From IMG/VR virus record IMGVR_UViG_3300010399_000002, positions 50,733-114,732 of that record: 64,000 bases of DNA; one strand, written 5' to 3'. Position numbers and translations under genes: made by a program. The notes under the pieces were generated by a model that worked only from the letters and a program-made list of their open reading frames with translations, was not told the origin of the DNA and ran no database searches. This document shows, piece by piece, positions 10,321 through 53,525 of the stretch. The stretch is from a virus. Position 1 is the stretch's first letter; each line of letters opens with the position of its first letter.

Positions 10321-10405
10321 TAGGAACTGTCAGGCACTGTTTCTAGACACCAAGTGGTGGTTGGATGGGGTTTTTGATTCCCAACTCGTTGTAGGGGCTA
10401 GAAAC
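10321..10405 (-). repeat. 85-bp dispersed element, copy A
   Basis: On the plus strand it starts TAGGAACTGTCAGGCACT, has GGTGGTTGG 35 bases later and GTTGTAG 32 bases after that. These are the same spacings as in five other copies (17855, 29393, 38498, 48849, 53441). It is the only copy that overlaps a gene deeply: the last roughly 25 codons of the upstream gene are read through it. Confidence 0.85.
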
Positions 10406-10920
10406 GGATTTTCACGAAACCTGCGTCTCGTAAACCTCTTTGATCCCAACCTCTTCTTTGTCTTCTCCAACTGGATGCGATACTCGTTTACGTACTTCAA
10501 TGGATCTTTGACTCGCAGCCTGGGAATGGACATTCCGAGCATCGCTACCTTGAAAGCGCTTCTAGCGGCTTTGATATTCTCGCCATTGGGATACAATCTC
10601 TGCATCTCCAACTCAACTGCTTGCCGAGAAACATTTCCACAGAATGTACTGAGTCTCGTACTGAATATCGAGCCTTTCACTGGAGATCGCCTTCGCCAGT
10701 AGTTAACTAAGAATCTCACTAACCAATCCGGACTGACCTTGTAGCGCTCGCACCAAACCTTCAGGTTCAGCAACCGCAAACGATCGTCGGGCTTCAGCCT
10801 CAATCTCACATTTGACTTGTGATAGTTGGACAGGATGGTCTCCACTTTTGATTGCCACTTGTTCAGCACATATTCGAGATGGGAACGGGGACTCATGAAC
10901 GTGTTCTCGTACGTAACCAC
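10330..10920 (-). CDS. Hypothetical protein, 196 aa, C-terminus encoded by repeat A
   Basis: The protein is basic, with SNYHKSNVRLRLKPDDRLRL and VSPDWLVRFLVNYWRRR, which may be a DNA-binding or nuclease-associated fold. The GTG at 10920 has AGGG seven bases upstream; an ATG at 10896 overlaps the stop of the preceding small gene (ATGA) and is an equally good start. The last roughly 25 residues (from about APTTSWESK) are translated from the 85-bp element, suggesting the original stop was lost. The function is unknown. Confidence 0.65.
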   Translation of the reverse strand: MVTYENTFMSPRSHLEYVLNKWQSKVETILSNYHKSNVRLRLKPDDRLRLLNLKVWCERYKVSPDWLVRFLVNYWRRRSPVKGSIFSTRLSTFCGNVSRQAVELEMQRLYPNGENIKAARSAFKVAMLGMSIPRLRVKDPLKYVNEYRIQLEKTKKRLGSKRFTRRRFRENPFLAPTTSWESKTPSNHHLVSRNSA

Positions 10921-11063
10921 TTTGGCACCCTAGGCTTTACACAGGTTCTATACCTTGATACAAAGCCTTGTAACATCTCAACACGTACTCTACGCATCCA
11001 ACGGAACCCCAACCACTTAGGGGCGCGCCCTTTTCTCGTAACCAAATTATTCCAGTAACTCAT
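10893..11063 (-). CDS. Small basic protein, 56 aa
   Basis: A frame starting MSYWNNLVTRKGRAPKWLG has an AGAGG site eight bases before the ATG and ends in an ATGA overlap with the alternative start of the next gene. It is very rich in Arg, Lys and Trp, so it may bind nucleic acid. It fills a gap of about 160 bases that otherwise holds no gene. Codon content alone does not prove it is real. Confidence 0.5.
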   Translation of the reverse strand: MSYWNNLVTRKGRAPKWLGFRWMRRVRVEMLQGFVSRYRTCVKPRVPKWLRTRTRS

Positions 11064-11083
11064 TTTTCACGCCTCTACTCGAT

Positions 11084-11269
11084 TCACTTGTGCTTCTCCT
11101 TCCACCAAGACACGAATGCGGACAGTACAACAGCAACCATCGGGCCGACCTGCACACCCATCGGTGGATCTTTCTGCTTAACCAATAGCGCCTGCGTTAG
11201 ACTATCTACAAACCAAAACGCCAAGGCCGGAATAACGAAATTTTCTATGAATGAGACTAGTATACTCAT
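11084..11269 (-). CDS. Small membrane protein, holin-like, 61 aa
   Basis: Two hydrophobic segments (residues about 5-25, IENFVIPALAFWFVDSL, and 40-56, VGPMVAVVLSAFVSWW) are separated by a charged turn (KQKDPP), and the tail is basic (KEKHK). This is the shape of a small class II holin. No endolysin is adjacent, so the lysis role is only possible. The start overlaps the previous stop by four bases. Confidence 0.6.
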   Translation of the reverse strand: MSILVSFIENFVIPALAFWFVDSLTQALLVKQKDPPMGVQVGPMVAVVLSAFVSWWKEKHK

Positions 11270-13930: not shown

Positions 13931-13932
13931 AC

Positions 13933-14301: not shown

Positions 14302-14311
14302 CTTACTCTCC

Positions 14312-14662: not shown

Positions 14663-14665
14663 AAC

Positions 14666-14767
14666 TTAATCTCCACCTAAGAGCTTTCCTAATACGTAGG
14701 CAACACAAATCGCAACCACAATGGTTGTGACTGTCTCACAGATAATCTTAATACTTTCCGGACTCAT
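14666..14767 (-). CDS. Very small membrane protein, 33 aa
   Basis: A 33-residue frame with one membrane segment (TTIVVAICVAYVLGKLLGG) starts in an ATGA overlap with the previous gene (14764-14767). It ends three bases before the next start. Such single-span micro-proteins are common in phage early regions and may target the host membrane. The function is unknown. Confidence 0.62.
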   Translation of the reverse strand: MSPESIKIICETVTTIVVAICVAYVLGKLLGGD

Positions 14768-15455: not shown

Positions 15456-15688
15456 ACCTGCACCTGAGACTCGGTCTCGTCTAGGTACGCATCGATACCG
15501 GACTCATCGAGACTGTTGAGAATCATTCCTGCTGTACGCGGCGCCCAATCCGGAACCTCGATGATACCTTTAGCCCTGGCTGTGTCTGTAGCTGCAACGA
15601 ACTTGACCTCCAACCTGTGTTGCGCTGCGTAGTGCCGCAACTTCGCCGACTCGTAGTCACCTGGCTCGATAACGAAAATGATCATCAT
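15452..15688 (-). CDS. Hypothetical protein, 78 aa
   Basis: The protein begins MMIIFVIEPGDYESAKLRHY and appears to be a small alpha/beta fold with an acidic tail (DETESQVQV). It overlaps the previous stop as ATGA. No family is recognised. Confidence 0.62.
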   Translation of the reverse strand: MMIIFVIEPGDYESAKLRHYAAQHRLEVKFVAATDTARAKGIIEVPDWAPRTAGMILNSLDESGIDAYLDETESQVQV

Positions 15689-16037: not shown

Positions 16038-16244
16038 CTAGATCCTCGACATCCGCGCCTCACGCTTCACTACTTTAACGCGACCTGTTGACGTAAGCAC
16101 TGTTGGAATAGTGCGCTTTAGCCAGGCTACACCGTTGTCGACCGCCACGAGCTCCCAACCTTCTTCACCTTTGTCGTTCAGTATAGCCGCCAAATGTGCT
16201 GGCATCCCGGATGATACAAATTCGTAATCGTACTCGAACTTCAT
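16038..16244 (-). CDS. DUF4177-like small protein, 68 aa
   Basis: The pattern YDYEFV...ILNDKGEEGWELVAVDNG followed by WLKR matches the DUF4177-type fold (L-N-x-x-G-x-E-G-W-E-L-V). The family is widespread and has no agreed function. The gene overlaps the helicase stop by four bases. Confidence 0.7.
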   Translation of the reverse strand: MKFEYDYEFVSSGMPAHLAAILNDKGEEGWELVAVDNGVAWLKRTIPTVLTSTGRVKVVKREARMSRI

Positions 16245-17734
16245 GCTGCTGCCTCCTTCTTCAACGTAGACTCCAACTTCTTTTGGGCGAACTCGAACAA
16301 GTCCTTAACATCGCCCGTCCATCGGTACTTGAAAACAGGAATACCCGCTTTCCTGAAAGCTCCTCGACGATATTTGGTAGCCTTGGTAAACGGACTCAAA
16401 CCACTATCACCTACATCGTAATAGATCAGCCCTCGTTTCCCGACGCAAAGACGCACACCTCGGCCGAACTTTTGCATAGCGTCTTCGCGGGAACGATACG
16501 ACGCGCCATCGATCATGGTATCGACCTTTTTGATGTCCACACCTTTCTTGAAAACGCGATTGGCGATCAGCAATCGAATGCGACTCGCATCGAATGACTT
16601 TTTGGCCTGTCGTCTGAAACTGCGGGACTTAGCTCCGTACACAACTCGATGGGGAACATCCGACACTCGCCTTGACAGAAACTTAAGATGCCTGATGCGT
16701 TCCACTAGCGCAATAGTATGGTAACCGAGTTCGTGCGCTTCTCGAATGATGGCCTCAATCAGATTGTTGCGCCTCTTACTGCGCACAACAAACCGATCGT
16801 AAGCCTCACTGTGTGTTCCGCTCTCGGTGTTGCCCACACTCCGATCCAGATCTACCGCAATCACAATTCCTGAAGTAAGGTGCTTTTCTTCAACTCCGCG
16901 CCGATAGGGATACTCGTATAAGACTGGTCCGGTCAAAGCAAACGCACGAAGACGGATGGGAGCCTTTTGAAGACTCAATGTAGCTGTCAGACCTAACACG
17001 ACCGGTGGATTGATGGACTGAACAGTAGACAAATTTCGCTTGTTCAGAGCAAGATGGACTTCGTCGATGAACAAAACCTGCAGCCCGCGCATCCAGAGCT
17101 TGAACTCCTTATCGTGCCTATGACGATGGAGTGTCTGAACGGTGGCTACGGTTATACGCCTCGGACTGAAACGTCCTGCGCCAATGATGCCGACCGACTC
17201 ACCTATTACTTCGGATAGCGCCTTGCGCGCCTGGTCCAATAGAGTGAGCTCGTCTACAACGAAACAACCTGAACCGCGGAGAGCCTTAAAGTATAGTCCG
17301 GCAATCCTTGTCTTCCCGCTTCCCGTGGCATTGAGAATCAACCCGCCATGGTTGCGGGCCTTCAGCATCTTGGCAAGGCACTCGTTCTGAAACGCCCAAG
17401 AGCTGTTTGTTAATGGATTGAACGAAACGGACTGTCGCTGATCATCGACTGATAGATCGAATTGCTCGACAAGACGTTCACGCTGAGCAAGGAACAGTCC
17501 GGAAGGAACTCGACTGCGCTTGAAGAAACGAACGTAGCCATCCCAAGGCTTGTCGTTTCCCCAACGACGCCTTTGGAACTTAAACGCCCAGAACGCAGAC
17601 GGATGCTTGTAACGAAAGAATGGGTCTATCGCCTCGTAGCTGTAAGGCGAATGAAACACAGCCCACCGGTTGGTGAGTGTGACGTCAAGTGGTTGACGGC
17701 TACCGCGTGTAGGGATCTTCCCCGACTCTAGCAT
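16241..17734 (-). CDS. SF2 DNA/RNA helicase (UvsW/type III restriction-like)
   Basis: The protein has 497 residues. Motif I is LNATGSGKTRI (about residue 134), motif II LFIDEVH (about 221), motif III GLTATLS (about 249), and motif VI lies in FGRGVRLCVGKRG (about 429). An extended N-terminal part resembles UvsW-type helicases, which remodel branched DNA and are used in late recombination-dependent replication. It is the first gene after the promoter-like site at 17763-17792, so it probably heads the early operon. Confidence 0.85.
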   Translation of the reverse strand: MLESGKIPTRGSRQPLDVTLTNRWAVFHSPYSYEAIDPFFRYKHPSAFWAFKFQRRRWGNDKPWDGYVRFFKRSRVPSGLFLAQRERLVEQFDLSVDDQRQSVSFNPLTNSSWAFQNECLAKMLKARNHGGLILNATGSGKTRIAGLYFKALRGSGCFVVDELTLLDQARKALSEVIGESVGIIGAGRFSPRRITVATVQTLHRHRHDKEFKLWMRGLQVLFIDEVHLALNKRNLSTVQSINPPVVLGLTATLSLQKAPIRLRAFALTGPVLYEYPYRRGVEEKHLTSGIVIAVDLDRSVGNTESGTHSEAYDRFVVRSKRRNNLIEAIIREAHELGYHTIALVERIRHLKFLSRRVSDVPHRVVYGAKSRSFRRQAKKSFDASRIRLLIANRVFKKGVDIKKVDTMIDGASYRSREDAMQKFGRGVRLCVGKRGLIYYDVGDSGLSPFTKATKYRRGAFRKAGIPVFKYRWTGDVKDLFEFAQKKLESTLKKEAAA

Positions 17735-17792: not shown

Positions 17793-17854
17793 GGATTATT
17801 TTTGGCACTCTAAATCGGCTTGTCGGGCACTTCTGGCACTCAAAATAACCTGGC

Positions 17855-17939
17855 TAGGAACTGACAGGCACTGTTGATTGACCGAAGATGGTAGTTGGGA
17901 TAGGGTTTTCCCACTGAACTTGTTGGAGGAGCTCAGATG
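17855..17939 (-). repeat. 85-bp dispersed element, copy B
   Basis: It starts TAGGAACTGACAGGCACT on the plus strand, with GGTAGTTGG and GTTGGAG at the same offsets as the other copies. It overlaps the stop codon of the beta-propeller tail gene by seven bases. Next to it (17803-17874) are four GGCACT or GGGCACT motifs, which no other copy has in this number. Confidence 0.87.
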
Positions 17940-19252
17940 CAAACATTTCCTTGGCCTCCATCTACACCGTTGCCTGACGATAGCACTGGGTCTTGCCAAT
18001 AGTACGGCCAATACGCATGAACCTTGGTCGTGGAATTGTAGGCACCACCACCGCGAGCAAAGAAGATTCCTATACCGCCACCTTGGGCTGGCCCACCGGT
18101 GCACTGTAGAATATGATCGCCTGAACCGGTGGCATCCACAATAACCGCGGGAGTACCCCAAGCTGCGGCACTGTACTTACTGTAAGAAATCTCTAACGCC
18201 TTAACTCCGGCACCTTGTGTACGATTCTGTCCCCAAATCACATAAGGGTTTCCTGCGTCATCGGTATCTGCCTCTGTGTTGCGAACTCCATTCGCTACTG
18301 TATTGACGACAGTAGCAACTGTCTGGGTTGTCCATGTAGGAACATCTGCTGACGTTGCACGCAAGACCTTGACGTAGTCAGTCTTGAACGGAGACGGATT
18401 GCCAGCAATGAGTCCGTACGGATAGAAAATCTCGGTTCCAACCATTTTGGGTCTGCCTTCAGCTGCAAAACCCAAACCGTCAAGCCCTAACTGTGTCTCG
18501 TCTAAAATCAATTGTGCTGTCTGAAGTACATCGCTGCTGTCCAGCGTTCGATGCAACACACCACTGTGGCCTGCTGCTGTTAACTTGCCATCGAATGTAA
18601 AATGTGTACGTCCACTTGCACCGGCCAAAGCGAATCCGGTATTAAAGTCTATTGCCAACCCTGTACCGTACACATGAGCGCCAGTACCCCACGTACCACC
18701 ATCCGTACACGATACCCAAGACACCCGATTACGTGGAACTGCAGAAACGACTTCATCTGCGGACTGATAGATAACGATGAACTTGCTATCTGCTGCCCTC
18801 CATGCCATATCGAAACTAAGTAAAAAATTGGTGGACAGTGCTGCCCCGATGGTGGTGTAGTCTGGACCGTTAGGACGGTTCGTTGACCACGCCTCTGCGA
18901 GCATATCGAACGTTGTAATCGTCAACCTCTTGTTTGAAGCAACATACAAAACGCCAATCTCATCGCCATTGGCTGCACACGCGATAGAGGACCAACCAAA
19001 TGAAGCTGAAGCGTCACCGGAGGCGTAGACTGTTGGATGACCGGCAGAATCTACCTCGGCCCACGTAACTCCAAAATCTGTACTCTTCCAACACTCTACG
19101 GTGTTGCCAACTGGATCTACGAAAAAAGCGAAATAGTTTAAGCCTTTGCGGAAAAAGTAGTACCCGGGATTGTACGTAGCAAACGAACTGTTGCTGTGCC
19201 CATCTCCTATACGGATAACCTGCGCCGGATCTACAATGTAAGGATATGCCAT
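17933..19252 (-). CDS. Tail beta-propeller protein (sialidase/BNR-like fold)
   Basis: The protein has 439 residues with repeated strands and an Asp-box-like ECWKSTDFGVTWAEVD near residue 53. It is the last structural gene, directly downstream of the tail hub, which is where receptor-binding or tail-tip proteins usually lie. It may bind or cleave host glycans. No catalytic triad is claimed. The Gly-rich end (VLSSGNGVDGGQGN) stops at repeat B. Confidence 0.7.
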   Translation of the reverse strand: MAYPYIVDPAQVIRIGDGHSNSSFATYNPGYYFFRKGLNYFAFFVDPVGNTVECWKSTDFGVTWAEVDSAGHPTVYASGDASASFGWSSIACAANGDEIGVLYVASNKRLTITTFDMLAEAWSTNRPNGPDYTTIGAALSTNFLLSFDMAWRAADSKFIVIYQSADEVVSAVPRNRVSWVSCTDGGTWGTGAHVYGTGLAIDFNTGFALAGASGRTHFTFDGKLTAAGHSGVLHRTLDSSDVLQTAQLILDETQLGLDGLGFAAEGRPKMVGTEIFYPYGLIAGNPSPFKTDYVKVLRATSADVPTWTTQTVATVVNTVANGVRNTEADTDDAGNPYVIWGQNRTQGAGVKALEISYSKYSAAAWGTPAVIVDATGSGDHILQCTGGPAQGGGIGIFFARGGGAYNSTTKVHAYWPYYWQDPVLSSGNGVDGGQGNVCI

Positions 19253-29349: not shown

Positions 29350-29392
29350 AACAGCATTCTCCTCATGCAATAGCACCCTCTAAGAACCTGTC

Positions 29393-29477
29393 TAGGAACT
29401 CGCAGGCACTATCGACAGATACCAAATGGTAGTTGAATAGGGTTTTTGTTACTCAGGACGTTGTAGAGGCTGCTACA
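29393..29477 (-). repeat. 85-bp dispersed element, copy C
   Basis: It starts TAGGAACTCGCAGGCACT on the plus strand; GGTAGTTGA and GTTGTAGAGGCTGCTAC lie at the shared offsets. It ends three bases before the stop codon of the GT2-like gene. It has the GTAG...CTAC palindrome at its end (GTAGAGGCTGCTAC). Confidence 0.88.
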
Positions 29478-29480
29478 CTT

Positions 29481-38474: not shown

Positions 38475-38497
38475 TGTAGCACTCGTTTGGCCCTATC

Positions 38498-38582
38498 TGG
38501 GACCTGTCGGGCACTCATCTTGGTTATTGGATGGTAGTTGGAGATGGTTTTCGTTACTGTAACCGCTGGAGAGGCTGCTACG
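38498..38582 (-). repeat. 85-bp dispersed element, copy D
   Basis: It starts TGGGACCTGTCGGGCACT on the plus strand, with GGTAGTTGG and GCTGGAGAGGCTGCTAC at the common offsets. It overlaps the stop codon of the neck gene at 38578 by five bases. It is the most divergent copy in the left arm. Confidence 0.85.
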
Positions 38583-38910
38583 CTGCTCCTAAATACACTT
38601 TTACATGGTGGTCTCCGCTCTGATCCGTCGGACGCTCCCAGTTGACTATGATTCCTAATGATTCTCCGTTCTGACTGAACTTATCGTCGAGATCAACAAT
38701 AGTTGGCAAACCTAGAACCCAGATGACTGTACTAGCAAACGTGTCTGTACCTGGTTGACGAGCATTGGCTACGCGCACAGTCTTCTTAACTACGCGACAA
38801 CGATACGATACGATCTCATCGTAAATAGGCTTCGTGTACTGATCTCGATCCAGAACCTTCTGGTAATCGACAGTGGCAGGACACAGAACCAACCAATCAC
38901 TGGCAGCCAT
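38578..38910 (-). CDS. Putative head closure/neck protein, 110 aa
   Basis: The segments WLVLCPATVDYQKVLDRDQY and VIWVLGLPTIVDLDDKF suggest a beta-rich neck protein of the head-closure class. Position between adaptor and gp10-like protein supports this. No motif is decisive. Confidence 0.6.
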   Translation of the reverse strand: MAASDWLVLCPATVDYQKVLDRDQYTKPIYDEIVSYRCRVVKKTVRVANARQPGTDTFASTVIWVLGLPTIVDLDDKFSQNGESLGIIVNWERPTDQSGDHHVKVYLGAA

Positions 38911-41418: not shown

Positions 41419-41457
41419 TATGTTAGTACCACGATGATACAAGAACCTGTGTGACCA

Positions 41458-41934: not shown

Positions 41935-41940
41935 AATTCC

Positions 41941-44258: not shown

Positions 44259-44260
44259 TG

Positions 44261-44482
44261 TTAGGTCTCCTTGGACATACCTGCTGTCCTAATCTTCTGG
44301 TCTAGCACAATAATCTGCCCCTCGGTTTGTTCAATACGTTCCTTCTCCGCAGCAATCTTATCGTGCAGTTCTTCGACGTGTAACTTTGCCTGCTCCACCG
44401 CAACCTCGTACTGCATACGTTGGATCTGCATCCGTCGCAACTCCAACTGACGTGAACGTTCCATCCCATTTGACTCAGCCAT
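44261..44482 (-). CDS. Coiled-coil protein, 73 aa
   Basis: The ATG at 44482 is preferred: it lies just inside the end of the previous gene. From about residue 10 to 65 the sequence is a continuous charged helix (RMQYEVAVEQAKLHVEELHD, KERIEQTEGQIIVLDQK), so a coiled coil is likely. It could be a chaperone or trimerisation factor. No family recognised. Confidence 0.6.
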   Translation of the reverse strand: MAESNGMERSRQLELRRMQIQRMQYEVAVEQAKLHVEELHDKIAAEKERIEQTEGQIIVLDQKIRTAGMSKET

Positions 44483-44762
44483 CTTTCTTCTCCGCCACCT
44501 CAACCGGCTGACTTGCTACCATCTCCCCTGTTTGTGGATTGATATTGTATCTGCCTGACAGTCCATACTTCGACAACGTCTTGATGATCCAAGACTGGTA
44601 AGCTTCTTGAACCATAAGCAGATTGTGTGAAGCGGCCTGCATAGCTGCTGAACGCAAACGGAACTCAACCAGATCTCCGGGACCCATCTTCGGATGAACA
44701 ACCGGAGCAGGAACCGAAATTGGAGTTGCCTTAGACTTCTTTGCCTTGATCTTATGTCTCAC
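44475..44762 (-). CDS. Hypothetical structural-region protein, 95 aa
   Basis: The N-terminus is basic and Pro-rich (KAKKSKATPISVPAPVV); the rest is helical (AMQAASHNLLMVQEAYQSW) and ends with a short NPQTGEM segment. It overlaps the previous gene by four bases. Function unknown. Confidence 0.6.
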   Translation of the reverse strand: MRHKIKAKKSKATPISVPAPVVHPKMGPGDLVEFRLRSAAMQAASHNLLMVQEAYQSWIIKTLSKYGLSGRYNINPQTGEMVASQPVEVAEKKDG

Positions 44763-45244
44763 GAATCAACCTCATCCCACCATATGGTGGCATATACGTT
44801 AGCCGGATTCTCCGGATCGAGATTTGTTACCGTTACACGGAAGTTCTCATCTACGCCGTTACCAACCAACTTACAGAAGTTCTTATCTGGTGGTCTGAAA
44901 TAGTCGTTGGGATCTTTACTTAGGCCTCCCGTAAACCTCGTACCAAACTCCAACTCAATGGCTCCGTCCCGTGACTTGAAAACCCACTTACAAGCAACTG
45001 AAGATGAAAAGTCTGCGCCGATCAACTTTCCTGTCTTGCTAGCAGCGATGGTTGTACCGTCTAAATCGACTGAGCTTCCAGCTGCAAGATTGTCTGAAGA
45101 TAGAACATCTCGTACCGGATACGCCGCGACTAATGGTGTAAAACGTTCACGGTGTCTTTCCTGACCGTCATACAGAACAACTTCTGTATCGGTCTGTTTA
45201 CCCGAACCTTCCGGGCTGGGCATTCCGATGAAGCCGTCGGCCAT
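44759..45244 (-). CDS. Decoration-like protein, 161 aa
   Basis: The C-terminal half (YFRPPDKNFCKLVGNGVDE then FRVTVTNLDPENPANVYATI) matches the end of 43338-44258 in spacing and motifs. The N-terminal half (SVDLDGTTIAASKTGKLIGA) is beta-rich. It may be a capsid-surface protein. The similarity between the two is visible by eye only. Confidence 0.6.
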   Translation of the reverse strand: MADGFIGMPSPEGSGKQTDTEVVLYDGQERHRERFTPLVAAYPVRDVLSSDNLAAGSSVDLDGTTIAASKTGKLIGADFSSSVACKWVFKSRDGAIELEFGTRFTGGLSKDPNDYFRPPDKNFCKLVGNGVDENFRVTVTNLDPENPANVYATIWWDEVDS

Positions 45245-45252
45245 AGCATCCT

Positions 45253-45855
45253 TTACGCGTACGCTGGCAAGTACTGACTACGAATCTGATCGAGAGTCGC
45301 CTTAGGAAACGCTGCAATTCGACTATCCGGACTGGCGTTCACAACAAAAGCGTGATTTGCTGCTAATGACATTACAGTTGTATTGAAATTCCTAGCCCAC
45401 TCTTCGTGCTCGGACTGACCTCGGCCTCTGGATGACCAAGAATAGTCTGGATACCAGCGATCCGTACCGCTGTAATCAAAACCTAACAGAATGATCTGCT
45501 TGGCACCTTTGAGAGCCGCAAGGTTAAGAGCAGCATAACCACTCGTACCGCCAAAATGTACACTACCTTGAACTTCACTCAGACCCAACAACCGAAGACG
45601 AGTAAGATACTGCACACCACGAAACTCGCCGCGTTGATCTGGTGGTATGGCCAAATACCTTTCACCGCCGAACGATTGGATATGTTCCTTGCGATTGGCC
45701 ATCCACATAACGTCTGCTGAAAACAGAGCAGTTGCCCAGGGCAGGTATCGACTGGCGTCGTTGATGGTTACCACCACCTGCCCCCGCAACAACTCGAAGT
45801 CAAAGCTGCGCAGAGACGGGCCTCCTCCTACGAGGAAAACCTTATCCCAGGGCAT
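45253..45855 (-). CDS. GGGPSL-type protein (MptE/DUF115-like), copy 3
   Basis: N-terminus VFLVGGGPSLRSFDFELLR, then DASRYLPWATALFSADVMW and AKQIILLGFDYSG. It follows the same plan as the tandem pair at 36421-37680 but sits in the capsid block, beside the SAP-domain gene, overlapping it by 14 bases. Function unknown. Confidence 0.65.
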   Translation of the reverse strand: MPWDKVFLVGGGPSLRSFDFELLRGQVVVTINDASRYLPWATALFSADVMWMANRKEHIQSFGGERYLAIPPDQRGEFRGVQYLTRLRLLGLSEVQGSVHFGGTSGYAALNLAALKGAKQIILLGFDYSGTDRWYPDYSWSSRGRGQSEHEEWARNFNTTVMSLAANHAFVVNASPDSRIAAFPKATLDQIRSQYLPAYA

Positions 45856-46240
45856 TCTCCAACCTCTTTTGCATATCCCGCTTACTGCCTGTAGTATCGA
45901 GCTTCAGCGACTTGCACTTGGCTCGAAGCTGGTTCATGGACATCGAAGCCAGATCCAAAACCTTTTCTTCCTTTGGTTCTGCTTCTTTGACCTGTTGGGC
46001 CGCCTTGCGGACCGGTTGCACGGTCTGCGTGGCTGGCACTACATGAAGGTAACCGGTCCGACACATCTGCAAAGCTATCTGCCTTGCTTGCGAACCGTCC
46101 GATGCCAAATCTCCGAGAGTAATTACATCGCCTGGTTGCTTCTCGACTCCGCTGATCGTAAGTTGTCGAGCTGCTTTGAAGGCAATACTCGGATCATCGA
46201 CATTGATAGACGACACGGCTGGTTGCACCAGCGCTGGCAT
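45842..46240 (-). CDS. SAP-domain protein in the capsid block, 132 aa
   Basis: The last 40 residues (SMSMNQLRAKCKSLKLDTTG then SKRDMQKRLENAL) match a SAP helix-linker-helix DNA-binding motif. The N-terminal half has beta strands (VEKQPGDVITLGDLASDGSQ). It lies just downstream of the major capsid gene. SAP-type ends occur in some phage head-associated proteins; a DNA-contact role is inferred. Confidence 0.7.
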   Translation of the reverse strand: MPALVQPAVSSINVDDPSIAFKAARQLTISGVEKQPGDVITLGDLASDGSQARQIALQMCRTGYLHVVPATQTVQPVRKAAQQVKEAEPKEEKVLDLASMSMNQLRAKCKSLKLDTTGSKRDMQKRLENALG

Positions 46241-46255
46241 AGGTACTCCTTTCCT

Positions 46256-47245
46256 TTACGCGACGATGCTGTCGAAGAAATAGCCTAGATCGGCTGAGAT
46301 CTTCTTTTGATCGAACGCCATCTCGATCTCCACCCGATCCGATGCCAGTGCCTCCATACGGAAGCGCTTGATGCGGTTCCCTTGAGCACCGGCGCCGAGA
46401 TGACCTGTCCAGCTGAACGTGTAGCCTGAAGCTGGGGTCATCAACCCGGGTGATGGAGGTGAATAAAAGAGCCCTACCTTTTTCCCACCGATGAAAGAAT
46501 GGGTGGCGGTAGCTGCTCCTTCTTTCGCCGTGTTCTCGATTGACTTCATGATGAACACGCGATCAACCTTGAACAGTGCTGCGATCTCCGTCAGGTCGAC
46601 CATAGCTGGACCGTTGGGAGTCTGCCCGTACTTGACCCGATCGACGAACTGCGGATGGTTGACCAAGTACTTCAGGACCGAGTAACCCATCACGAGCGTG
46701 TTGGGCTCGAAACCGGTAGACTGAAGAACAACTTCCTTACCGGCCCAAATGTTCTCAATGGGCGTGGCGTTGGCATTGTTCCACTGAAGCACCTGACCGG
46801 AGCCCGGAGCTGAAGCGACGCCGGTGATATCCGTAGTCCAGATACCAGTACCGAAGAACTTCGACACGAACAACTTCTCTCTCTTGATCAGAGCCTTCAG
46901 CGTTACAAAGGCTGTTGCTTCCTGATCGAGATTGATAGGTACGTCGGCGTTCGAACGGACCTGATCGGGAATATCCTGGTGGAAAGCGTACAGATGGGCA
47001 AAGTACGTATCGGTACCGGGCTTGTAACCGGAACCGACCGACTCTGTGCTCACCGCACGAACCTCCATCTCGTCCCGGTTCCAGTAAGCGTGGTCGTACG
47101 TGTAATAGCTGTCCGACTGCTTCTGAACGGGAATGTTGGGAAAGACATCGGCCGCAATGAAATTTTTCTGGTCCTGGATATAAGCGACCGAGAAATTCGT
47201 TAGCGGACGGTTGACATGGACATCGCCTGGAGTTGGCAGAGGCAT
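46256..47245 (-). CDS. Major capsid protein
   Basis: The 329-residue protein has the E-loop-like start (DVHVNRPLTNFSVAYIQDQK), FIAADVFPNIPVQKQSDSYY, and the capsid-type VVLQSTGFEPNTLVMGYSVL and LFYSPPSPGLMTPASGYTFSW. These match the HK97-fold major capsid proteins of the group with the motif A-x-x-x-F-P-x-[IV]-x-V. A strong AAAGGAG site precedes the ATG. It forms the capsid shell and follows scaffold and decoration genes. Confidence 0.87.
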   Translation of the reverse strand: MPLPTPGDVHVNRPLTNFSVAYIQDQKNFIAADVFPNIPVQKQSDSYYTYDHAYWNRDEMEVRAVSTESVGSGYKPGTDTYFAHLYAFHQDIPDQVRSNADVPINLDQEATAFVTLKALIKREKLFVSKFFGTGIWTTDITGVASAPGSGQVLQWNNANATPIENIWAGKEVVLQSTGFEPNTLVMGYSVLKYLVNHPQFVDRVKYGQTPNGPAMVDLTEIAALFKVDRVFIMKSIENTAKEGAATATHSFIGGKKVGLFYSPPSPGLMTPASGYTFSWTGHLGAGAQGNRIKRFRMEALASDRVEIEMAFDQKKISADLGYFFDSIVA

Positions 47246-47288
47246 TTATTTTTTCTCCTTTCGTTTTTGAAACTGAACTGCCGACTCC

Positions 47289-47666
47289 TTATGGAGCGAC
47301 TGAACCCCTCTTGTTAAACACCATGGAAACGATCTGTCCAGCTGCGGTAGCTGCTTCCCTGGCACGACCGAGAACGTAATCCCCGGTAGCTGCGGCGATG
47401 GCTCGACCGACTGAATCGGAACCGAGATTGGCGTTCGCGGAGAACGCTGCACCGGCCTCGATCTTTGTCAAACCATCGCCTACCATGACGCAGGCTGCAC
47501 GATCAATTGCTGCTGGATCGTCCTGCAAGACACCGATGGCGTTGGCACCGTCACCAGCGACATCCACGCGGCCGTTGCTGTCCTGATTTACGAATCGATA
47601 CTGCTTGGCTGACAGATCACCGGCGGCGGGGAACGTTAGTGTTTTACCCAGATTCTCTACTGCCAT
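47289..47666 (-). CDS. Capsid decoration/stabilisation protein (DUF2190-like)
   Basis: The 125-residue protein is Gly/Ala-rich with beta strands (AIGVLQDDPAAIDRAACVMV, VGRAIAAATGDYVLG). This pattern and its place between scaffold and major capsid are typical of DUF2190-type proteins that stabilise the shell. Exact binding is not shown. Confidence 0.78.
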   Translation of the reverse strand: MAVENLGKTLTFPAAGDLSAKQYRFVNQDSNGRVDVAGDGANAIGVLQDDPAAIDRAACVMVGDGLTKIEAGAAFSANANLGSDSVGRAIAAATGDYVLGRAREAATAAGQIVSMVFNKRGSVAP

Positions 47667-47695
47667 AAGCGGTTACTCCTTTCTTTGTGATTTGG

Positions 47696-48421
47696 TTACT
47701 GCCTGGTGCTTCCCACTGCTTCGGCAGCCAATTCGGGATTGCGCTCCATGGCCAACGTGTAACCTTTGGCCAAAGTCACCTTCTCGTCCTGGCTGATTTT
47801 CTTGCCGATGGCTTCCAACTTGGCGTGTGGCGTGTTGCCGTTCCCTTCGCCTGGCTGGTCGCTACCTACGGCCTTGGTTAGCTTGCCAAGAGCCGCGTCG
47901 CCGGCCTTCATAAAAGTCACGACCTTCTCGGCTTCGGCTTCTCCGAGCTTGTCGTACAGCGACTTCATGATGAGACCTTTTTCTTCCGGCTTCCCGGGAG
48001 TATTGGGCAACTCGGTCTCGGCCCGCTTCGTGAACTCGATGACCTTCCGGGCATCCGCTTCGCGCTTGGCGATCTCGTTGGCTTCCTTGGCCGAAGTCTC
48101 GGCATCGGTTGCGCGCTTTTCGAGAGCTTCCATGCGCTTCTGGATCTCGGTCGGCACCTTGTTGGCCTTCTCGATAGCTTCGGTCATCTGGTTCTTGCGA
48201 ACCTCCGACGTGGCTTCCAAGAACGCGTCCTGCCCTTCCTCGTTGAGCTTGCTGAAGTACTCCTTCTCAGCGTCGTTCAACTTGGAAATGGCCTCGAATC
48301 GAACAGCAGCGGCCTTGGCGACTTCGAGCTCTTCTCCGATGGTCTCCAACTTCTCGACCTTGGACTCGAGTTCTTCCAAGTGCTTGTCGATCTCTTCGGG
48401 TGTCATATCTTTTGCTGGCAT
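47696..48421 (-). CDS. Scaffold / head assembly protein
   Basis: The 241-residue protein is highly charged and mostly helical (EIDKHLEELESKVEKLETIG, EIQKRMEALEKRATDAETSA). Position upstream of capsid genes and the coiled-coil composition fit a scaffold that is removed or cleaved during head maturation. An NNTPHAK-like stretch lies near the end. No enzymatic motif is present. Confidence 0.78.
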   Translation of the reverse strand: MPAKDMTPEEIDKHLEELESKVEKLETIGEELEVAKAAAVRFEAISKLNDAEKEYFSKLNEEGQDAFLEATSEVRKNQMTEAIEKANKVPTEIQKRMEALEKRATDAETSAKEANEIAKREADARKVIEFTKRAETELPNTPGKPEEKGLIMKSLYDKLGEAEAEKVVTFMKAGDAALGKLTKAVGSDQPGEGNGNTPHAKLEAIGKKISQDEKVTLAKGYTLAMERNPELAAEAVGSTRQ

Positions 48422-48496
48422 CTGTACTCCTTTCTTTGTTTATCGGATAACTGAAAGAGAACCGGATCTCCGACGGAACCCGATTCGATCTTGGTC

Positions 48497-48805
48497 TTAC
48501 CGACTTGGGTATCTCAAATGGTGGGGCTTGAACCTGGCCTGCAAAGACGAAACACGCTTACTCAATGTCTCGAGTCTCTTCTTGGCCATGTCCTTTTTCT
48601 CGTCCCACGGCACCTCGAGCTTCTCACCTTTGGGCTTCTTCTTTTTCTTGTCTTCTTCCAACTCAGCGGGCTTGGGAGGACCTTCTTTTCCGTAACGCTT
48701 GAACAGAACCACTGGTGCATGTTGGTTGGCTCCGCGGTCGACGAACGAAACCTCGTCCATATCCAACTCGGTGATCTTGTGGACCTTAATCTGCGTGGTA
48801 GCCAT
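48497..48805 (-). CDS. Protein with VDRGANQHA motif (protease-leader-like), 102 aa
   Basis: The segment LDMDEVSFVDRGANQHAPVV then LFKR is the known leader of XkdF-like phage proteases (S-x-V-D-R-G-A-N). Here it is detached from a protease body: a Lys/Glu-rich middle and an end RVSSLQARFKPHHLRYPSR, which resembles the FNPHHD tags. It may be a scaffold or a split-off piece. It lies just left of copy E. Confidence 0.62.
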   Translation of the reverse strand: MATTQIKVHKITELDMDEVSFVDRGANQHAPVVLFKRYGKEGPPKPAELEEDKKKKKPKGEKLEVPWDEKKDMAKKRLETLSKRVSSLQARFKPHHLRYPSR

Positions 48806-48848
48806 AATCCTCCATCTCAGCCCGTTATTACACTCATGTAACCCCGCC

Positions 48849-48933
48849 TAGGGCCTCACAGGCACTCGTCTCGGATGTTGAATGGTAGTTGGTAAGGGGT
48901 CTGAACCCCCGACTCGTTGTAGAGGCTGCTACT
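48849..48933 (-). repeat. 85-bp dispersed element, copy E
   Basis: It starts TAGGGCCTCACAGGCACT on the plus strand; GGTAGTTGG and GTTGTAGAGGCTGCTAC are at the common offsets. It also holds a short palindrome GGGGTCTGAACCCC (minus strand reads GGGGTTCAGACCCC). It overlaps the stop codon of the tagged gene at 48929 by five bases. Confidence 0.88.
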
Positions 48934-49423
48934 TAGTCTTGAAATTGGGTGCGTTCCTACCTGTATGGAACTTTCGTGGACCGCCCTCTACGAACTCAAA
49001 CATACCTTGCGCTCGATCTGTCCCCTGAGTATTAACGTAGAAACGACGATCTTGGTACTCGATAGTAAACTCGTTGCCTTTGGTCTTGTCTTTGAAAGCC
49101 TCATTGGACGTACGCGGAGTAATAGGAACTCCTAACCCGGTTGAGTATGGAACCTTAACAACTGGCTTGGTCTGCAAAGCACTCCACTCTTCATCTGTGA
49201 ACGATGACTGCTTAAATCTTTTTGTATCTTGCCAACCCTGTACACGATCTTCTGTCGGCTTGGTTTTATCTGCAAAAAGACTGGTAGTGTCTTTACTCGC
49301 TCCGATGCCGACTCCACCTGACCCGCCACCCGTTGAACAGAACTGACCTCCGCTATCGTGACAAGTATTCATCTTTTCGATGCGATCATACAACCTCGCA
49401 ATGTGAATACTTGCACTGGCCAC
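48929..49423 (-). CDS. Tagged protein with MNTCHDSGGQFCSTGGG leader, 164 aa
   Basis: The leader (HIARLYDRIEKMNTCHDSGG then QFCSTGGGSGG) is a variant of FNPHHDxxGQFSS-GGG found in other genes here. The C-terminal domain (DEEWSALQTKPVVKVPYSTG, EFTIEYQDRRFYVNTQGTD) is alpha/beta and unknown. Position among head genes supports a virion role. Confidence 0.6.
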   Translation of the reverse strand: MASASIHIARLYDRIEKMNTCHDSGGQFCSTGGGSGGVGIGASKDTTSLFADKTKPTEDRVQGWQDTKRFKQSSFTDEEWSALQTKPVVKVPYSTGLGVPITPRTSNEAFKDKTKGNEFTIEYQDRRFYVNTQGTDRAQGMFEFVEGGPRKFHTGRNAPNFKTK

Positions 49424-51061
49424 TTACACCGTCTCCTCAACTGGAGTAAGAAGCCCGTACCCGTGAATCGAGAACTCTTTCAAGATGCCCTTCTTCACCT
49501 GATCCCATGTCCCGTGATCCGTTACCTGCCAACCAACCCACCAACCTACGCGCCCGAGATCGATCCCTAACGCCTCTTGCTTGGCCTTGGTGAAGACTAT
49601 ACTCTCGATCAGATCTCCAACCCCGACCTTCTGGTGCATGTTGCCGGCCTTGCGAACGTTTTTGACAAACCTATATGCGGCCTTCTCGAGCTCGTCCTCG
49701 GACATTTGGTGCTTCTGAAGATCAGTAACGATCTGCCCGTCTTTCTCGATGGTAGATGCCCAACCAAAGGCTTGCATCTTGTCATTGTCGATCTTACTGA
49801 TAGGAGTCGTTATACTGATCTTCGATAGAGCCTTGCGCTGAACCTTGAGTGACCATGATCTCCCGGCGTTGCCGCCCATTCCAAACCAGTTCTGGTAATC
49901 TGGGCCGTTGTTGGCCCAAGCATCGCCTTGGCCTTTACTCATCGTCCCGAAGAACCTGACCATGTTCTGAATTTCATCTGGGTCGATAGCCGTACCGTTG
50001 GCGAGCTTCGAGGCTAGAGCATACATCCCGTTACCCAAACCTCGCTGCCCTTCTTCTTTGTTCTTGAAAACCTCGAGTGCCTTCTTGGCCTTCGTCTGAA
50101 CTGCAACCGGAGGCACGTGCTTTTCGAGCTTCGCTTCCAAAGGCTCCCAACTATTGCAAACGTACCGTGTGTTGTAGTTGAACGAGTACAGATCGCAATA
50201 TCCATCTCCACCGTGAATGCAACTCGAACAAGTCTCTCCCCGATCTTCTGCCTGCCTGTAGTTGGGAGCATCCTTCATGGCCTTCTCGACCGGCTCTTCG
50301 TCCGTAGTCTCGAGATTGAACTCCTTACCGATGGGACCGACCTGAAAAATAATGTCTTCGAGTGTTATCTCGGCGTGCTGCACCCGCGGCGTGGGCGTAG
50401 CTGCTGACTGATCGATGTATGCCAACGTGATATGCGGCGTATAGCTCTCAAAGTTCTCGGAGAACTCTACACCCTTGGCTTTTAGAGCTGTAGCCAACTC
50501 ATCTCGAAACTTCAGCAGATCTGCAGACATAACCGGAACGTAAGCCACGTCTTTGAAGTCGGAATGTTCTGTAGCTGGAAAGCGTCCTACACCGCCAATA
50601 GAAGCCTTGACTGGACCTCGATCTGCGGTAAATGAATCGAGAACCTCTTCTGCGGCAGCTAGTTGAGACAGAGACACGTCTTCGAACTTGCCGAGATAAA
50701 ACAACGTGATATGCATCTCATCGGGCGGCATCGGACGAGTACTCGTTGTATCGATGTATTGCCCGTACCCTAGAGCTAGTGCCTTGGTGAGACCTTCGTC
50801 CAACTTGAACGCGATCATGACCCCGTGATGCAGATCTCCATTCATATGTGGGCACTTCGAGATCTTCGTATACTTTCCATCTTCACCTCGTTTGTAACCG
50901 GCGTTCTTCAATGCACCGTAGGCCATTGCAAAAGCTCGGGCTTCACTCTTGCCGCTACCCAGGATGCTGTTGAATGCACTCCTGAAGATAGTTTGGGCGT
51001 GGTCGTCGGGAACGATGCTCTTGATCTTACTCGGTAATGCGTCATTGGATGAATACGGCAT
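49424..51061 (-). CDS. Multi-domain protein: ChaB + 2H phosphoesterase + cysteine module + XkdF-like prohead protease
   Basis: The 545-residue protein has a ChaB-like domain (1-65, NDALPSKIKSIVPDDHAQTI), then a 2H phosphoesterase (about 78-245) with the two required motifs MHITLFYLG (H117, T119) and PHITLAYI (H210, T212). A cysteine cluster follows (C278, C281, C289, C302). A middle region contains GNAGRSW. The XkdF-like serine protease lies in 428-540 (AFGWASTIEKDGQIVTDLQK, GVGDLIESIVFT, IKEFSIHGYG-like end). XkdF-type enzymes trim the prohead; the 2H fold hydrolyses cyclic phosphates or 2',3'/2',5' bonds. The fusion is unusual; the 2H role is inferred. Confidence 0.78.
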   Translation of the reverse strand: MPYSSNDALPSKIKSIVPDDHAQTIFRSAFNSILGSGKSEARAFAMAYGALKNAGYKRGEDGKYTKISKCPHMNGDLHHGVMIAFKLDEGLTKALALGYGQYIDTTSTRPMPPDEMHITLFYLGKFEDVSLSQLAAAEEVLDSFTADRGPVKASIGGVGRFPATEHSDFKDVAYVPVMSADLLKFRDELATALKAKGVEFSENFESYTPHITLAYIDQSAATPTPRVQHAEITLEDIIFQVGPIGKEFNLETTDEEPVEKAMKDAPNYRQAEDRGETCSSCIHGGDGYCDLYSFNYNTRYVCNSWEPLEAKLEKHVPPVAVQTKAKKALEVFKNKEEGQRGLGNGMYALASKLANGTAIDPDEIQNMVRFFGTMSKGQGDAWANNGPDYQNWFGMGGNAGRSWSLKVQRKALSKISITTPISKIDNDKMQAFGWASTIEKDGQIVTDLQKHQMSEDELEKAAYRFVKNVRKAGNMHQKVGVGDLIESIVFTKAKQEALGIDLGRVGWWVGWQVTDHGTWDQVKKGILKEFSIHGYGLLTPVEETV

Positions 51062-51130
51062 AGCACCTCCCGAAAGCAGAGATCTCCACCGCAGCCCCGT
51101 TCGGCTGCTTAACTACATTCTTGAACTAGA

Positions 51131-52252
51131 TCAGTTGAACTTCAGAACTGTTGTACAGCGACAGCTCGGATGCACTGGAGGATACTCGTACGGACCGTTT
51201 GGTGTAACAAACTGTTCTCCAAGTGGAACACCTTGCGGATTCATTTTTGGAATAGGTCCGCACACTGCACACGTTCTTCCGTCTCGCGTTACAACCCACT
51301 TCTTTCTGGTAATCGCCTCGTCCAGCAGATCTTGATTGATTGCTTGTCTCCAAACCTCTTGCTGACCGGCGTTTGCAGCACGAAGACTTTCCGTTCTCGC
51401 GATCGTCATGGCCCGGTATTGCAGGAACCGTTCCTCATAGCGCTCCACCATTGTATCGATGGTAGCGGCTGACATCGTTCGACGACCTTCTACCTCGGCT
51501 AGGATACTGCGGTCGAATCTTCCATCTCGCAATGCGCGACCCAACGTGTTGATTAGCTGGGTCTCGTCTCCCGACTCCAATGCGCTGCGGTAATTCCTGA
51601 CTGCTTTGGCTTGACTCTTCGTTAGACCGATAATGCCTTTCAGCTCTCGCGCCATCGTAGCTGGAGTCTTGCCTGCTTGATAGCCTTCTACTAGAACGTC
51701 TTGGATAGCTTCGAGTGTAGAATCCGTTACCTCTCGGATTAGAGTGAAATCGTAGTCTCTGAGAAACTGGACGGCCTCTTCGGCTATGTAGTCGAAGATC
51801 AACTCGACTCCGACCTTGGGACGAGCTGCTTTCTCAACGGGAACCTTGACGCTACCTAAAGCTGTGATCTCGTAATCGGCGCCGGCATTGAAAGCTGCTC
51901 GCAACGCTTCTGAAAAAGATAATGACTGGGGATCGGCTCCTTTACCTCTAGACGCCGCTAGAAACCTGTTACGAAGATCTAGACTCGTTAATACCGAACT
52001 CGGTCCCGCGGCTATGGCTTCTTCGAGAGCCCTCAACGAGAACTTGTCTTTGACAACGTGAACTGCATCCACAAACGCCTTGGCGATCTTTAGCTCTTGC
52101 TTCTCGGCGGTCTCGAGTATGTCTGCGCCTATGGCTTTTGAGACTACAGCCTTCTTCTCTACCTTCGGAAGATTGGCTGATATAGCCTGAGACCAAGCAC
52201 GGATGTCTTGGTCTAGACTAGCCTCGAACTCTTCTATGACTTCGGCGGTCAT
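51131..52252 (-). CDS. MuF-type minor head protein
   Basis: The 373-residue protein starts at an ATG (52252) overlapping the previous stop as ATGA. Its end (RDGRTCAVCGPIPKMNPQGV then YPPVHPSCRCTTVLKFN) is the MuF/SPP1 gp7 head-morphogenesis signature. It may be injected or required for stable DNA packaging. A long helical body leads to it. It lies just upstream of the ChaB/2H/XkdF gene. Confidence 0.82.
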   Translation of the reverse strand: MTAEVIEEFEASLDQDIRAWSQAISANLPKVEKKAVVSKAIGADILETAEKQELKIAKAFVDAVHVVKDKFSLRALEEAIAAGPSSVLTSLDLRNRFLAASRGKGADPQSLSFSEALRAAFNAGADYEITALGSVKVPVEKAARPKVGVELIFDYIAEEAVQFLRDYDFTLIREVTDSTLEAIQDVLVEGYQAGKTPATMARELKGIIGLTKSQAKAVRNYRSALESGDETQLINTLGRALRDGRFDRSILAEVEGRRTMSAATIDTMVERYEERFLQYRAMTIARTESLRAANAGQQEVWRQAINQDLLDEAITRKKWVVTRDGRTCAVCGPIPKMNPQGVPLGEQFVTPNGPYEYPPVHPSCRCTTVLKFN

Positions 52253-52641
52253 TGCACGGCGTCCAAGAACTCGTAAGTCACAACCCCGTACCGGTAACAA
52301 TACGGGACATAAGCGCAATCCCGAAACAAGAACAGATCGGTTAATGGCACATGATGGGGATACAAAGGCAACCAGAATCTCGGATCGTTTCCCGCACGTC
52401 TGCACTGAGTCTGCAAATTCTCGTATGTCAGTATATGCGGTTGCGGATGATAGTGAGCATACAACTGACCTTTGTCGTTGAGAATCTGCAACTTGACCCG
52501 GCCGGCAACTGTATCTGCGGCTACGCACCTGGATGATACATCCTCGCCGTCGATGAACACACGGGCTCGGGCGTTCTTAACGATGTCTTCCATCTCGGGA
52601 GGCTCGTAGATTCCTTTGGTCAGATCGACACGGATGTTCAT
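52249..52641 (-). CDS. Hypothetical protein in head gene block, 130 aa
   Basis: The ATG at 52641 overlaps the previous stop as ATGA. The protein has beta-rich MEDIVKNARARVFIDGEDVS and DTVAGRVKLQILNDKGQLYA, followed by a Cys/His/Tyr-rich end (YPHHVPLTDLFLFRDCAYVP). It is linked by overlap to MuF and the tagged nuclease-like gene. Function unknown. Confidence 0.6.
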   Translation of the reverse strand: MNIRVDLTKGIYEPPEMEDIVKNARARVFIDGEDVSSRCVAADTVAGRVKLQILNDKGQLYAHYHPQPHILTYENLQTQCRRAGNDPRFWLPLYPHHVPLTDLFLFRDCAYVPYCYRYGVVTYEFLDAVQ

Positions 52642-53429
52642 GCAACCTCGTACTTCTCGATTAGCTCGGCCCACGCCTTCGAGATGGAACTGTACTTAAA
52701 TGTTCCTACGTACGCAGCCTTGACTGCTGGATTCGTCCAACCTGTCCGCAACTTGAAACCGCGAAACACGAACACATCGGCGGTCTTCTTGTCTGGATTG
52801 ATAATGCTCGTTACTGTGAGAGTCTCAATCTTGCAACGGCATTGCTTGGCTAACGCTTGTACCGCGGCTTCCTTGCGTTCCAGGATGCGCTTTTGCTTGC
52901 GCTCGTTCCAAGCCTTCTTCTTCTCCGGACTAGCCTTCGCTAACCAAGCGCTTTCCTTTACACCCGGCTGTCCGATAGTAGCTCGCCACTGTTGCGCTGA
53001 TTTACCGTTACTGACTAGACCCGCCTTGACCTCGATGACCCGATTACCAGCCATCATGTCCACAGCGAAGTTATTGACCTTGACGTTCAGCGTCTTGGCC
53101 TTTTGCTTTTGCGTCGTGTTGATATACGCAGCAGCAATCTGCTCACCAAGATACCCAACCTCTAACTTGCTGAGCTTGTTCTTAACCGGAACCTCTTCAC
53201 CAGAAAAGACCCGACCGGATACGCGACTGATAGCGACAGCGCCTGTTGGCCCGATCTTCGAACTCTTACTGCCACCTGTGGCACAGAACTGACCGCCCTT
53301 CGAGCCAGAAGATACATGGCACGGATTAGCCTTGCCTATCGAACCCAGAGCCTTACTGAAAAGCGCTGGACCCGACGGCCAGGACCCCAAGGGGTTTAGT
53401 ATGGCGGTAAAGTTAGCTGTGGCACTCAT
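52638..53429 (-). CDS. Tagged protein with PD-(D/E)XK-like nuclease domain, 263 aa
   Basis: Residues 34-50 give a tag NPCHVSSGSKGGQFCATGG, related to the FNPHHD..GQFSS tags. The centre (GYLGEQIAAAYINTTQKQKA, then NFAVDMMAGNRVIEVKAG) contains D...ExK spacing of a PD-(D/E)XK nuclease (Asp about 120, ExK about 130). Basic Lys/Arg-rich helix follows (EKKKAWNERKQKRILERKEA). Such a protein could be a virion-packaged nuclease. Nuclease activity is not shown. Confidence 0.62.
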   Translation of the reverse strand: MSATANFTAILNPLGSWPSGPALFSKALGSIGKANPCHVSSGSKGGQFCATGGSKSSKIGPTGAVAISRVSGRVFSGEEVPVKNKLSKLEVGYLGEQIAAAYINTTQKQKAKTLNVKVNNFAVDMMAGNRVIEVKAGLVSNGKSAQQWRATIGQPGVKESAWLAKASPEKKKAWNERKQKRILERKEAAVQALAKQCRCKIETLTVTSIINPDKKTADVFVFRGFKLRTGWTNPAVKAAYVGTFKYSSISKAWAELIEKYEVA

Positions 53430-53440
53430 AGAGTAGCGTC

Positions 53441-53525
53441 TAGGGCCTGCCAGGCACTCATGGTAGGCCCTAAGTGGTAGTTGGTGAGGGGTCTAAGTTC
53501 TCAGGACGTTGTAGGAGCTGATACA
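53441..53525 (-). repeat. 85-bp dispersed element, copy F
   Basis: It starts TAGGGCCTGCCAGGCACT on the plus strand, with GGTAGTTGG and GTTGTAGGAGCTGATAC at the common offsets. It ends two bases before the stop codon of the gene at 53527. The palindrome GCCTGCCAGGC at its start is the most regular of all copies. Confidence 0.88.

Follow-up and report, generated by a model that had tools for sequence, protein, structure and literature searches.

Dispersed 86-bp intergenic elements with a helically phased hexamer array as candidate promoter/operator modules of a 114.6-kb phage

T4 late promoters carry a short TATAAATA box that is read by the minimal phage sigma factor gp55, and stoperators are short single sites. 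In the halovirus HF2 (Haloferacalesvirus), the class I and class II intergenic repeats are proven promoters (PMC8707807). The element described here resembled those repeats in being dispersed and intergenic, with conserved blocks split by variable positions; the HF2 repeats measure 56–58 or 29 bp and lie at transcript 5′ ends. It differed from them in that HF2 is archaeal and its repeats, of unrelated sequence, contain an AT-rich TATA box and a BRE (PMC8707807); they are not known to carry a helically phased array. No AT-rich block of the HF2 TATA-like type was found in our element. The SAS and ESAS of cluster K mycobacteriophages are likewise intergenic, mostly in one orientation and beside start codons, with a regulatory role inferred (PMC3203893, PMC12699233). 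However, SAS is a 13-bp GGGATAGGAGCCC and ESAS a 17-bp imperfect inverted repeat with a variable spacer (PMC3203893, PMC12699233), whereas the present element spans at least 86 bp with fixed spacing and direct repeats; its consensus differed, and neither GGGATAGGAGCCC nor the 17-bp inverted repeat was found in it. The 17-bp repeats of cluster O (Corndog) and the cluster A stoperators also occur as many dispersed copies and are presumed protein sites, but the Corndog sites are palindromic and about one third lie inside genes (PMC4351075), while the present element is multi-block and intergenic only. With T4 late promoters it may share a logic, in which a phage sigma-region-2 protein steers host RNA polymerase to phage-specific sites; unlike them, it is long, multi-block and non-AT-rich. 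Phage intergenic regulatory repeats are already known as a kind. The present layout was absent from the collections searched, in agreement with the sequence-only reading, which knew of no described family with it; its analogues (HF2, SAS/ESAS) are of other sequence.

The virus record (IMG/VR IMGVR_UViG_3300010399_000002) comprised 114,732 bp and looked complete because its ends shared an exact 123-bp overlap; all genes ran leftward, giving an apparently complete, one-directional genome of a 114.6-kb phage. The window, that is, the whole 64,000-nt stretch that was analyzed (record positions 50,733 to 114,732), contained six copies of the element, each of 86 bp. All six had been reported by the sequence-only reading as gapless and in one orientation, and both properties held over the full 86 bp. 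An independent repeat search of the window returned the same six copies as the top family. When a position weight matrix (PWM) was built from five copies, the one left out scored +58 to +87 bits, and the next-best site anywhere in the window scored about −17 bits or lower. The proposed profile search of the rest of the genome added four copies (record positions 149, 13263, 34087 and 43167), bringing the count to ten per genome; the sole indel among them was a 1-nt deletion between blocks A and B in the copy at 34087. Mean pairwise identity of the nine gapless copies was 63%, beyond the expectation from random pairs (25%, maximum 44% in 20,000 draws), and 28 of 86 columns were invariant, compared with 9.9 expected under uniform decay (P = 2e-7).

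All ten copies were intergenic and co-oriented with the genes; a called ORF (10330–10920, minus strand) overlapped the copy at 10321 and spanned the element. Start codons lay 11–43 nt beyond the element end in nine of the ten copies. The distance to the following gene, earlier put at 12–121 bases, measured 11–120 nt from the element end, and the upstream end indeed coincided with a stop codon in five of the six window copies (stop at element position −4 to +6). Element-bounded units jointly held nearly all genes of the genome.

The bounding of functional modules (head, tail, polymerase, helicase) by elements could mean that they are homologous boundary sequences retained for recombinational exchange of gene modules, and deletions between intergenic repeats have occurred in Cluster O mycobacteriophages (PMC4351075). 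We consider this very unlikely, as 63% identity, the columns between the invariant ones being saturated, makes a poor substrate for homologous recombination but is typical of protein sites, and the collections searched yielded no relative with the element. The repeated, dispersed copies of uniform length might also recall a decayed gene, a small ORF or a MITE-like mobile remnant. Such an origin was hardly credible given the excess of invariant columns, the single indel and the exclusively intergenic location; conservation was non-uniform, every reading frame contained stops in some copy, and neither terminal inverted repeats nor target duplications were seen in the aligned copies with their flanks. 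A coding remnant was rejected accordingly, and the earlier view that the copies are not mobile, not CRISPR and without a U-tract was supported. Rfam gave no match and the collections searched only chance matches to a known element.

Read in the gene direction (minus strand), the element consisted of blocks A (AGCCTCTACAACG), B (CCAACTACCA) and C (AGTGCCTGNCAG), in that order. The spacing CCAACTACCA-N16-AGTGCC was 16 nt in all ten copies, including the one with the A–B deletion, with the divergent block B of the copy at 13263 taken by position; the gap reads as 16–18 nt depending on the hexamer counted. Blocks A and B shared a CWACWAC core at a lag of 31 bp, about three helix turns. When the three blocks were searched singly or paired, no paired-block partial element scoring near the full copies was found elsewhere in the genome. 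From block C to the next start codon, extending the element by about 25 bp, AGTGCC-like hexamers (AGTNCC) repeated with peaks at 0, 10, 20/21, 31/32 and 41 and a best period of 10.2–10.6 bp, which is one turn of B-DNA. None of 5000 shuffles or rotations matched the observed array score, and no similar array occurred elsewhere in the genome. The sequence-only reading had missed this array.

Table 1. Coordinates of the element copies, their arrays and blocks, and a candidate regulator in the window.
Feature	Position in window	Strand	Description
Element copy 1	10321..10406 (record 61053)	-	Ahead of gene starting ~10306 and unit with NAMPT, DnaB-type helicase and primase
Element copy 2	17855..17940	-	Ahead of helicase gene 16241-17734; start ~120 nt beyond element
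Element copy 3	29393..29478	-	Ahead of gene 28729-29376 and tape-measure unit
Element copy 4	38498..38583	-	Ahead of gene 38079-38474
Element copy 5	48849..48934	-	Ahead of gene 48497-48805 and major capsid protein unit
Element copy 6	53441..53526	-	Ahead of gene 52638-53429 and head-morphogenesis unit
Array, copy 1	10313..10338	-	AGTGCC, AGTTCC, AGTGCC at 0, +10, +20
Array, copy 2	17826..17872	-	Phased AGTNCC, additional AGTGCC at +41
Array, copy 3	29373..29410	-	Phased AGTNCC
Array, copy 4	38478..38515	-	AGTGCC, AGGTCC, AGGGCC, AGTGCT
Array, copy 5	48829..48866	-	Phased AGTNCC
Array, copy 6	53421..53458	-	Hexamer at 0, +10, (+21), +32 from block C; last overlaps ATGAGTGCC at start codon
Block A, copy 6	53507..53519	-	Consensus AGCCTCTACAACG, element positions 8-20; start+66 to start+78 in every copy
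Block B, copy 6	53475..53484	-	CCAACTACCA, element positions 43-52; proposed -35-like block
Block C, copy 6	53441..53458	-	AGTGCCTGNCAGNYCCYA, element positions 69-86; proposed -10-like block, first array unit
LuxR/GerE-type helix-turn-helix protein, 110 aa	58140..58472	-	Pfam GerE 45.3 bits; phrog_3282 'sigma factor' E 4e-9

Our main reading, to which we assign a probability of about 0.5, is that the element works as a control module in double-stranded DNA, a phage-specific promoter with a built-in operator, at the start of each transcription unit. Because the copies precede gene blocks and the repeats lie one helix turn apart, the virus probably uses the element as a switch of its own to start those blocks. 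Blocks B and C (AGTGCC) would play the parts that the −35 and −10 blocks have in promoters dependent on a sigma factor. Block A, which precedes B by three helix turns, would provide an activator or upstream contact site. The array, which keeps its phase from C as far as the start codon, would form a row of sites on one face of the helix for an oligomeric regulator. We infer that transcription would begin just downstream of C, yielding a 5′ leader of about 15–45 nt with the ribosome-binding site, and that the phage's divergent sigma-region-2 protein (record 48118–48681) may be the reader.

The presence of two conserved blocks, a fixed distance apart and tens of nucleotides before start codons, counted in favor of a promoter, as did the HF2 repeats, being proven promoters. 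So did the location and orientation of the ten copies, the phased array, the core shared by blocks A and B, the lack of RNA covariation, and the sigma region 2 and LuxR-type proteins that the phage encodes. Against it, block C together with the 10 nt that follow had an AT content of 37–40% compared with a genome average of 50%, so that the start region was not AT-rich; to our knowledge, no −10 hexamer resembles AGTGCC, and no early host-polymerase promoter to begin the cascade was identified. On the other side, in support of a phage-specific promoter, sigma-70-like promoters did not exceed chance anywhere and were absent from the elements. The window held no TTGAC...TATAAT match, its 44–64 kb region had fewer sigma-70-like sites than shuffles, and the best sigma-70 scores near most elements were 3–6.6 bits, with one of 8.8, below the top of the shuffled sequences.

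Both the rigid spacing and the helical phasing are signs of sequence-specific DNA binding, in line with the earlier suggestion of DNA-binding or regulatory sites, which the behavior of the element as a conserved intergenic sequence supported. They would also fit sites, not primarily for transcription, at which a phage protein of partition, replication, condensation or recombination organizes the DNA, and the copies were indeed distributed round the whole genome, spread every 5–21 kb. This explanation seemed unlikely: all ten copies precede gene starts and run in the same direction as the genes, an arrangement not required of partition or replication sites, and the families listed for the proteins scanned included no ParB-type or Rep-type protein.

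The sense strand of the elements was C-rich and G-poor, with an excess of C over G of 9–23 per 78 nt, within the top few percent of the genome (median −4 to −5, 99th percentile 10–11), and positions −30 to −21 contained no G in ten copies. This bias, together with the upstream stop codon that marks the beginning of most copies, would suit terminators of transcription units, at which the ribosome leaves at the stop, Rho (or a factor of the phage) is loaded by the C-rich, G-poor A/B transcript, transcription ends, and start signals lie elsewhere. The two elements within the scanned 44–64 kb lacked an intrinsic terminator (GC hairpin with U-run), a result also compatible with that idea. Rho loading, however, needs neither conserved blocks at fixed spacing nor a phased DNA array reaching the start codon, and we hold this explanation to be improbable.

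An element acting in RNA, as a 5′ leader or 3′ end, could be a processing site or could bind a translational regulator through the repeated hexamers of the message, since it sits between stop and start codons and the array overlaps ribosome-binding sites. We regard this as quite improbable. RNAalifold returned 0 consensus pairs and no covariation in the ten copies, most copies had fold z-scores close to 0 whichever strand was folded, and Rfam gave no match above the gathering score; we also know of no ring-type RNA binder with a period of 10.2–10.6. The structured-RNA or processing option of the sequence-only reading was thus not supported. The CCTG-N-CAGG and GTAG...CTAC dyads that it had pointed out were present, but only in some copies, and the covariation it had proposed to look for was absent.

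Among the genome's own proteins, the sigma region 2 match at record 48118–48681 was marginal (Pfam 25.1 bits against a cut-off of 24), with no recognized region 4 and no relatives in the viral contig collection. A single-sequence AlphaFold2 model of this protein was discarded (pLDDT 43); like the marginal score and the lack of a recognized region 4, it weighed against the promoter reading. The LuxR/GerE-type protein is one candidate DNA-binding regulator, judged by its domain matches. No OmpR-type regulator was found, nor a phage RNA polymerase beta subunit (positive control detected); a T7-type RNA polymerase gave no match in a search whose positive control was not detected either.

When the search was carried to other phage and viral contigs, IMG/VR, GTDB genomes, phages and plasmids gave chance matches only: pattern scans returned such matches in viral contigs and none in genome contigs, phages or plasmids. 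The PWM found no element in 86 capsid-related loci (1.16 Mb), and blastn against 20 records gave one 17-nt chance match. Long intergenic repeats of an analogous kind were absent from the capsid relatives, with the window as positive control. In two of these relatives, Pseudomonas phage KPP23 and Rhizobium phage RHph_TM3_3_9, intergenic repeats appeared sigma-70-promoter-like by eye; they were counted as support for the promoter reading.

For most phages outside model systems, the transcription programme is not known. Here, the apparent start of each of the ten transcription units in this 114.6-kb genome could be marked from sequence alone. A promoter/operator that is long, built of several blocks and not rich in AT, that occurs once for each transcription unit with a phased array reaching from the start site into the start codon, and that is recognized by a minimal, divergent sigma factor of the phage together with an oligomerizing DNA-binding protein would be a new kind of phage transcription signal, a proposal that we put forward as possible yet doubtful. 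If the element is a promoter, exact RNA 5′ ends are predicted, the divergent phage sigma factor gains a substrate on which it can be tested, and the phage would use a kind of promoter that goes wholly unseen by host-promoter predictors. Its helically phased array offers a concrete handle for finding the protein that binds there.

Six gapless 86-bp copies of the element were found in the window where the sequence-only reading had placed them, and a repeat finder returned the same six as the window's top repeat family. As a check, a PWM built from five copies recovered the sixth at 58-87 bits, with the next window site below -17. Mean identity among nine gapless copies was 0.63 (0.25 for random pairs), and 28 columns were invariant versus 9.9 expected under uniform decay; a chance origin of the similarity is excluded. 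The profile search of the remaining record proposed in that reading yielded four more copies in the same orientation. With ten copies in all, the genome is split into ten units, each 4.6-21 kb long, among whose genes are those for portal, head-morphogenesis, capsid, tail, helicase, NAMPT/DnaB, polymerase, and terminase. The described placement between genes was also borne out: the upstream end lay near a stop codon in 8/10 copies, that is, wherever an upstream stop was called (copy 149 begins 17 nt past a tRNA gene), and a start codon followed 11-43 nt after the element in nine copies and 120 nt after it in the tenth.

The virus record is 114,732 bp long, and the window covers its positions 50733-114732. 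The record starts and ends with the same 123 bases, so the genome looks complete and circular at ~114.6 kb, although it is classed as linear. The virus is a tailed phage with essentially all called genes on the minus strand, including capsid (phrog_1005), portal, tape measure, terminase, NAMPT, RecA, clamp-loader subunit, and SbcCD-like genes and an unusual polymerase fusion. The nearest capsid relatives showed 66-69% identity. JAESPQ010000022.1, a 219-kb contig of an Alteromonadaceae MAG, gave three identical-scoring capsid matches spaced 65,078 and 65,075 bp; the probable explanation is a circular phage genome repeated about three times in the assembly. Five DUF559 proteins resembled free-standing homing endonucleases, one carrying NUMOD3 motifs. 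Among the small proteins, two of 6-pyruvoyl-tetrahydropterin synthase type and a GTP cyclohydrolase I are pieces of a 7-deazaguanine DNA-modification pathway.

Positions of the repeats and selected genes (r, record; w, window; L006-L008, stretches of the same record)
Feature	Position	Strand	Remark
Element, window copies (starts)	w 10321, 17855, 29393, 38498, 48849, 53441	minus
Element, other copies	r 149, 13263, 34087, 43167	minus	scan of rest of record
Hairpin repeat, 55-62 nt	r 15492-15547, 16297-16352	minus	L006
Hairpin repeat, 55-62 nt	r 19448-19502, 22311-22365, 23937-23998	minus	L007
Terminal direct repeat, exact	r 1-123, 114610-114732 (w 63878-64000)
Family A DNA polymerase	r 40463-43138 (L008:6663-9338)		N-terminal uracil-DNA-glycosylase-type domain
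Sigma-like protein, 187 aa	r 48118-48681 (L008:14318-14881)	minus
DUF559 proteins	w 2565-3521; r 4571-5164, 25708-26595, 45708-46487, 48891-49598
545-aa protein	w 49424-51061		RNA-ligase-like N-terminal, DNA-methyltransferase/prohead-protease-like C-terminal part; just upstream of capsid unit

On the gene strand, the element comprised block A (AGCCTCTACAACG), block B (CCAACTACCA), and block C (AGTGCCTGNCAG..CCYA). The B-C distance was the same in 10/10 copies, one copy lacked one base between A and B, and a CWACWAC core was common to A and B at a distance of 31 bp. On the start-codon side of C, degenerate AGTGCC repeats occurred at +10, +20/21, +31/32, and +41, averaging 4.5, 3.1/2.6, 2.4/3.7, and 2.6 matches out of 6 (expected 1.5). 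Their best period was 10.2-10.6 bp, the phasing score was reached by 0/5000 shuffles or rotations, and no comparable hexamer array was found elsewhere on either strand of the genome. With this spacing all units would lie on one face of B-DNA, and the phasing indicates that a protein, or an oligomer of one, binds the double-stranded DNA. A structured-RNA reading did not hold, as neither RNA structure nor an Rfam match was found in the element. It likewise showed neither a coding frame nor a decay pattern, which rejected a gene or decayed gene.

Five hairpins upstream of and close to gene starts (GGTTACAATCCTTC..stem..GGATGGAGTAAC) form a second, distinct intergenic repeat with 24 consensus pairs and compensatory changes in six. 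This repeat matched no Rfam family and makes a good candidate for a new structured RNA.

Only chance matches to the element occurred in IMG/VR (three patterns), GTDB genomes, phage and plasmid records, and 20 whole records, and it was not found beyond chance in 86 related loci; among what was searched, it is confined to this genome. Comparably long intergenic repeats were absent from related phages. Dispersed intergenic repeats are already known in viruses, as cluster K SAS/ESAS (PMC3203893, PMC12699233), cluster O repeats (PMC4351075), and the HF2 intergenic repeats, which are proven promoters (PMC8707807), show; the element is set apart from all three, as described, by its sequence and length, its fixed arrangement of several blocks, and its phased array.

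Taken together, the element's position and orientation, its constant B-C distance, and the leader length are as expected of a promoter. No sigma-70 promoter was found at the element, and sigma-70-like sites in window 44001-64000 were rarer than in shuffled sequence (5 vs 14.7, sd 3.8). The region is not AT-rich and AGTGCC is, to our knowledge, no known -10 box, which makes it unlikely that ordinary host polymerase reads the element. Candidate readers may instead be phage-encoded: the divergent 187-aa protein, with a sigma-70 region 2 match above the Pfam cut-off (TIGR02937 E 0.005) and no recognisable region 4, a 110-aa LuxR-type helix-turn-helix protein, or both. Intrinsic terminators left no trace at the elements scanned, in agreement with the earlier view that these are not classic terminators. 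Rho-type termination after the upstream stop codon is the main rival to a promoter, because directly past that codon the sense strand is unusually rich in C and poor in G. Promoter and Rho-type terminator may coexist, in which case the element would be a boundary that ends one unit and starts the next.
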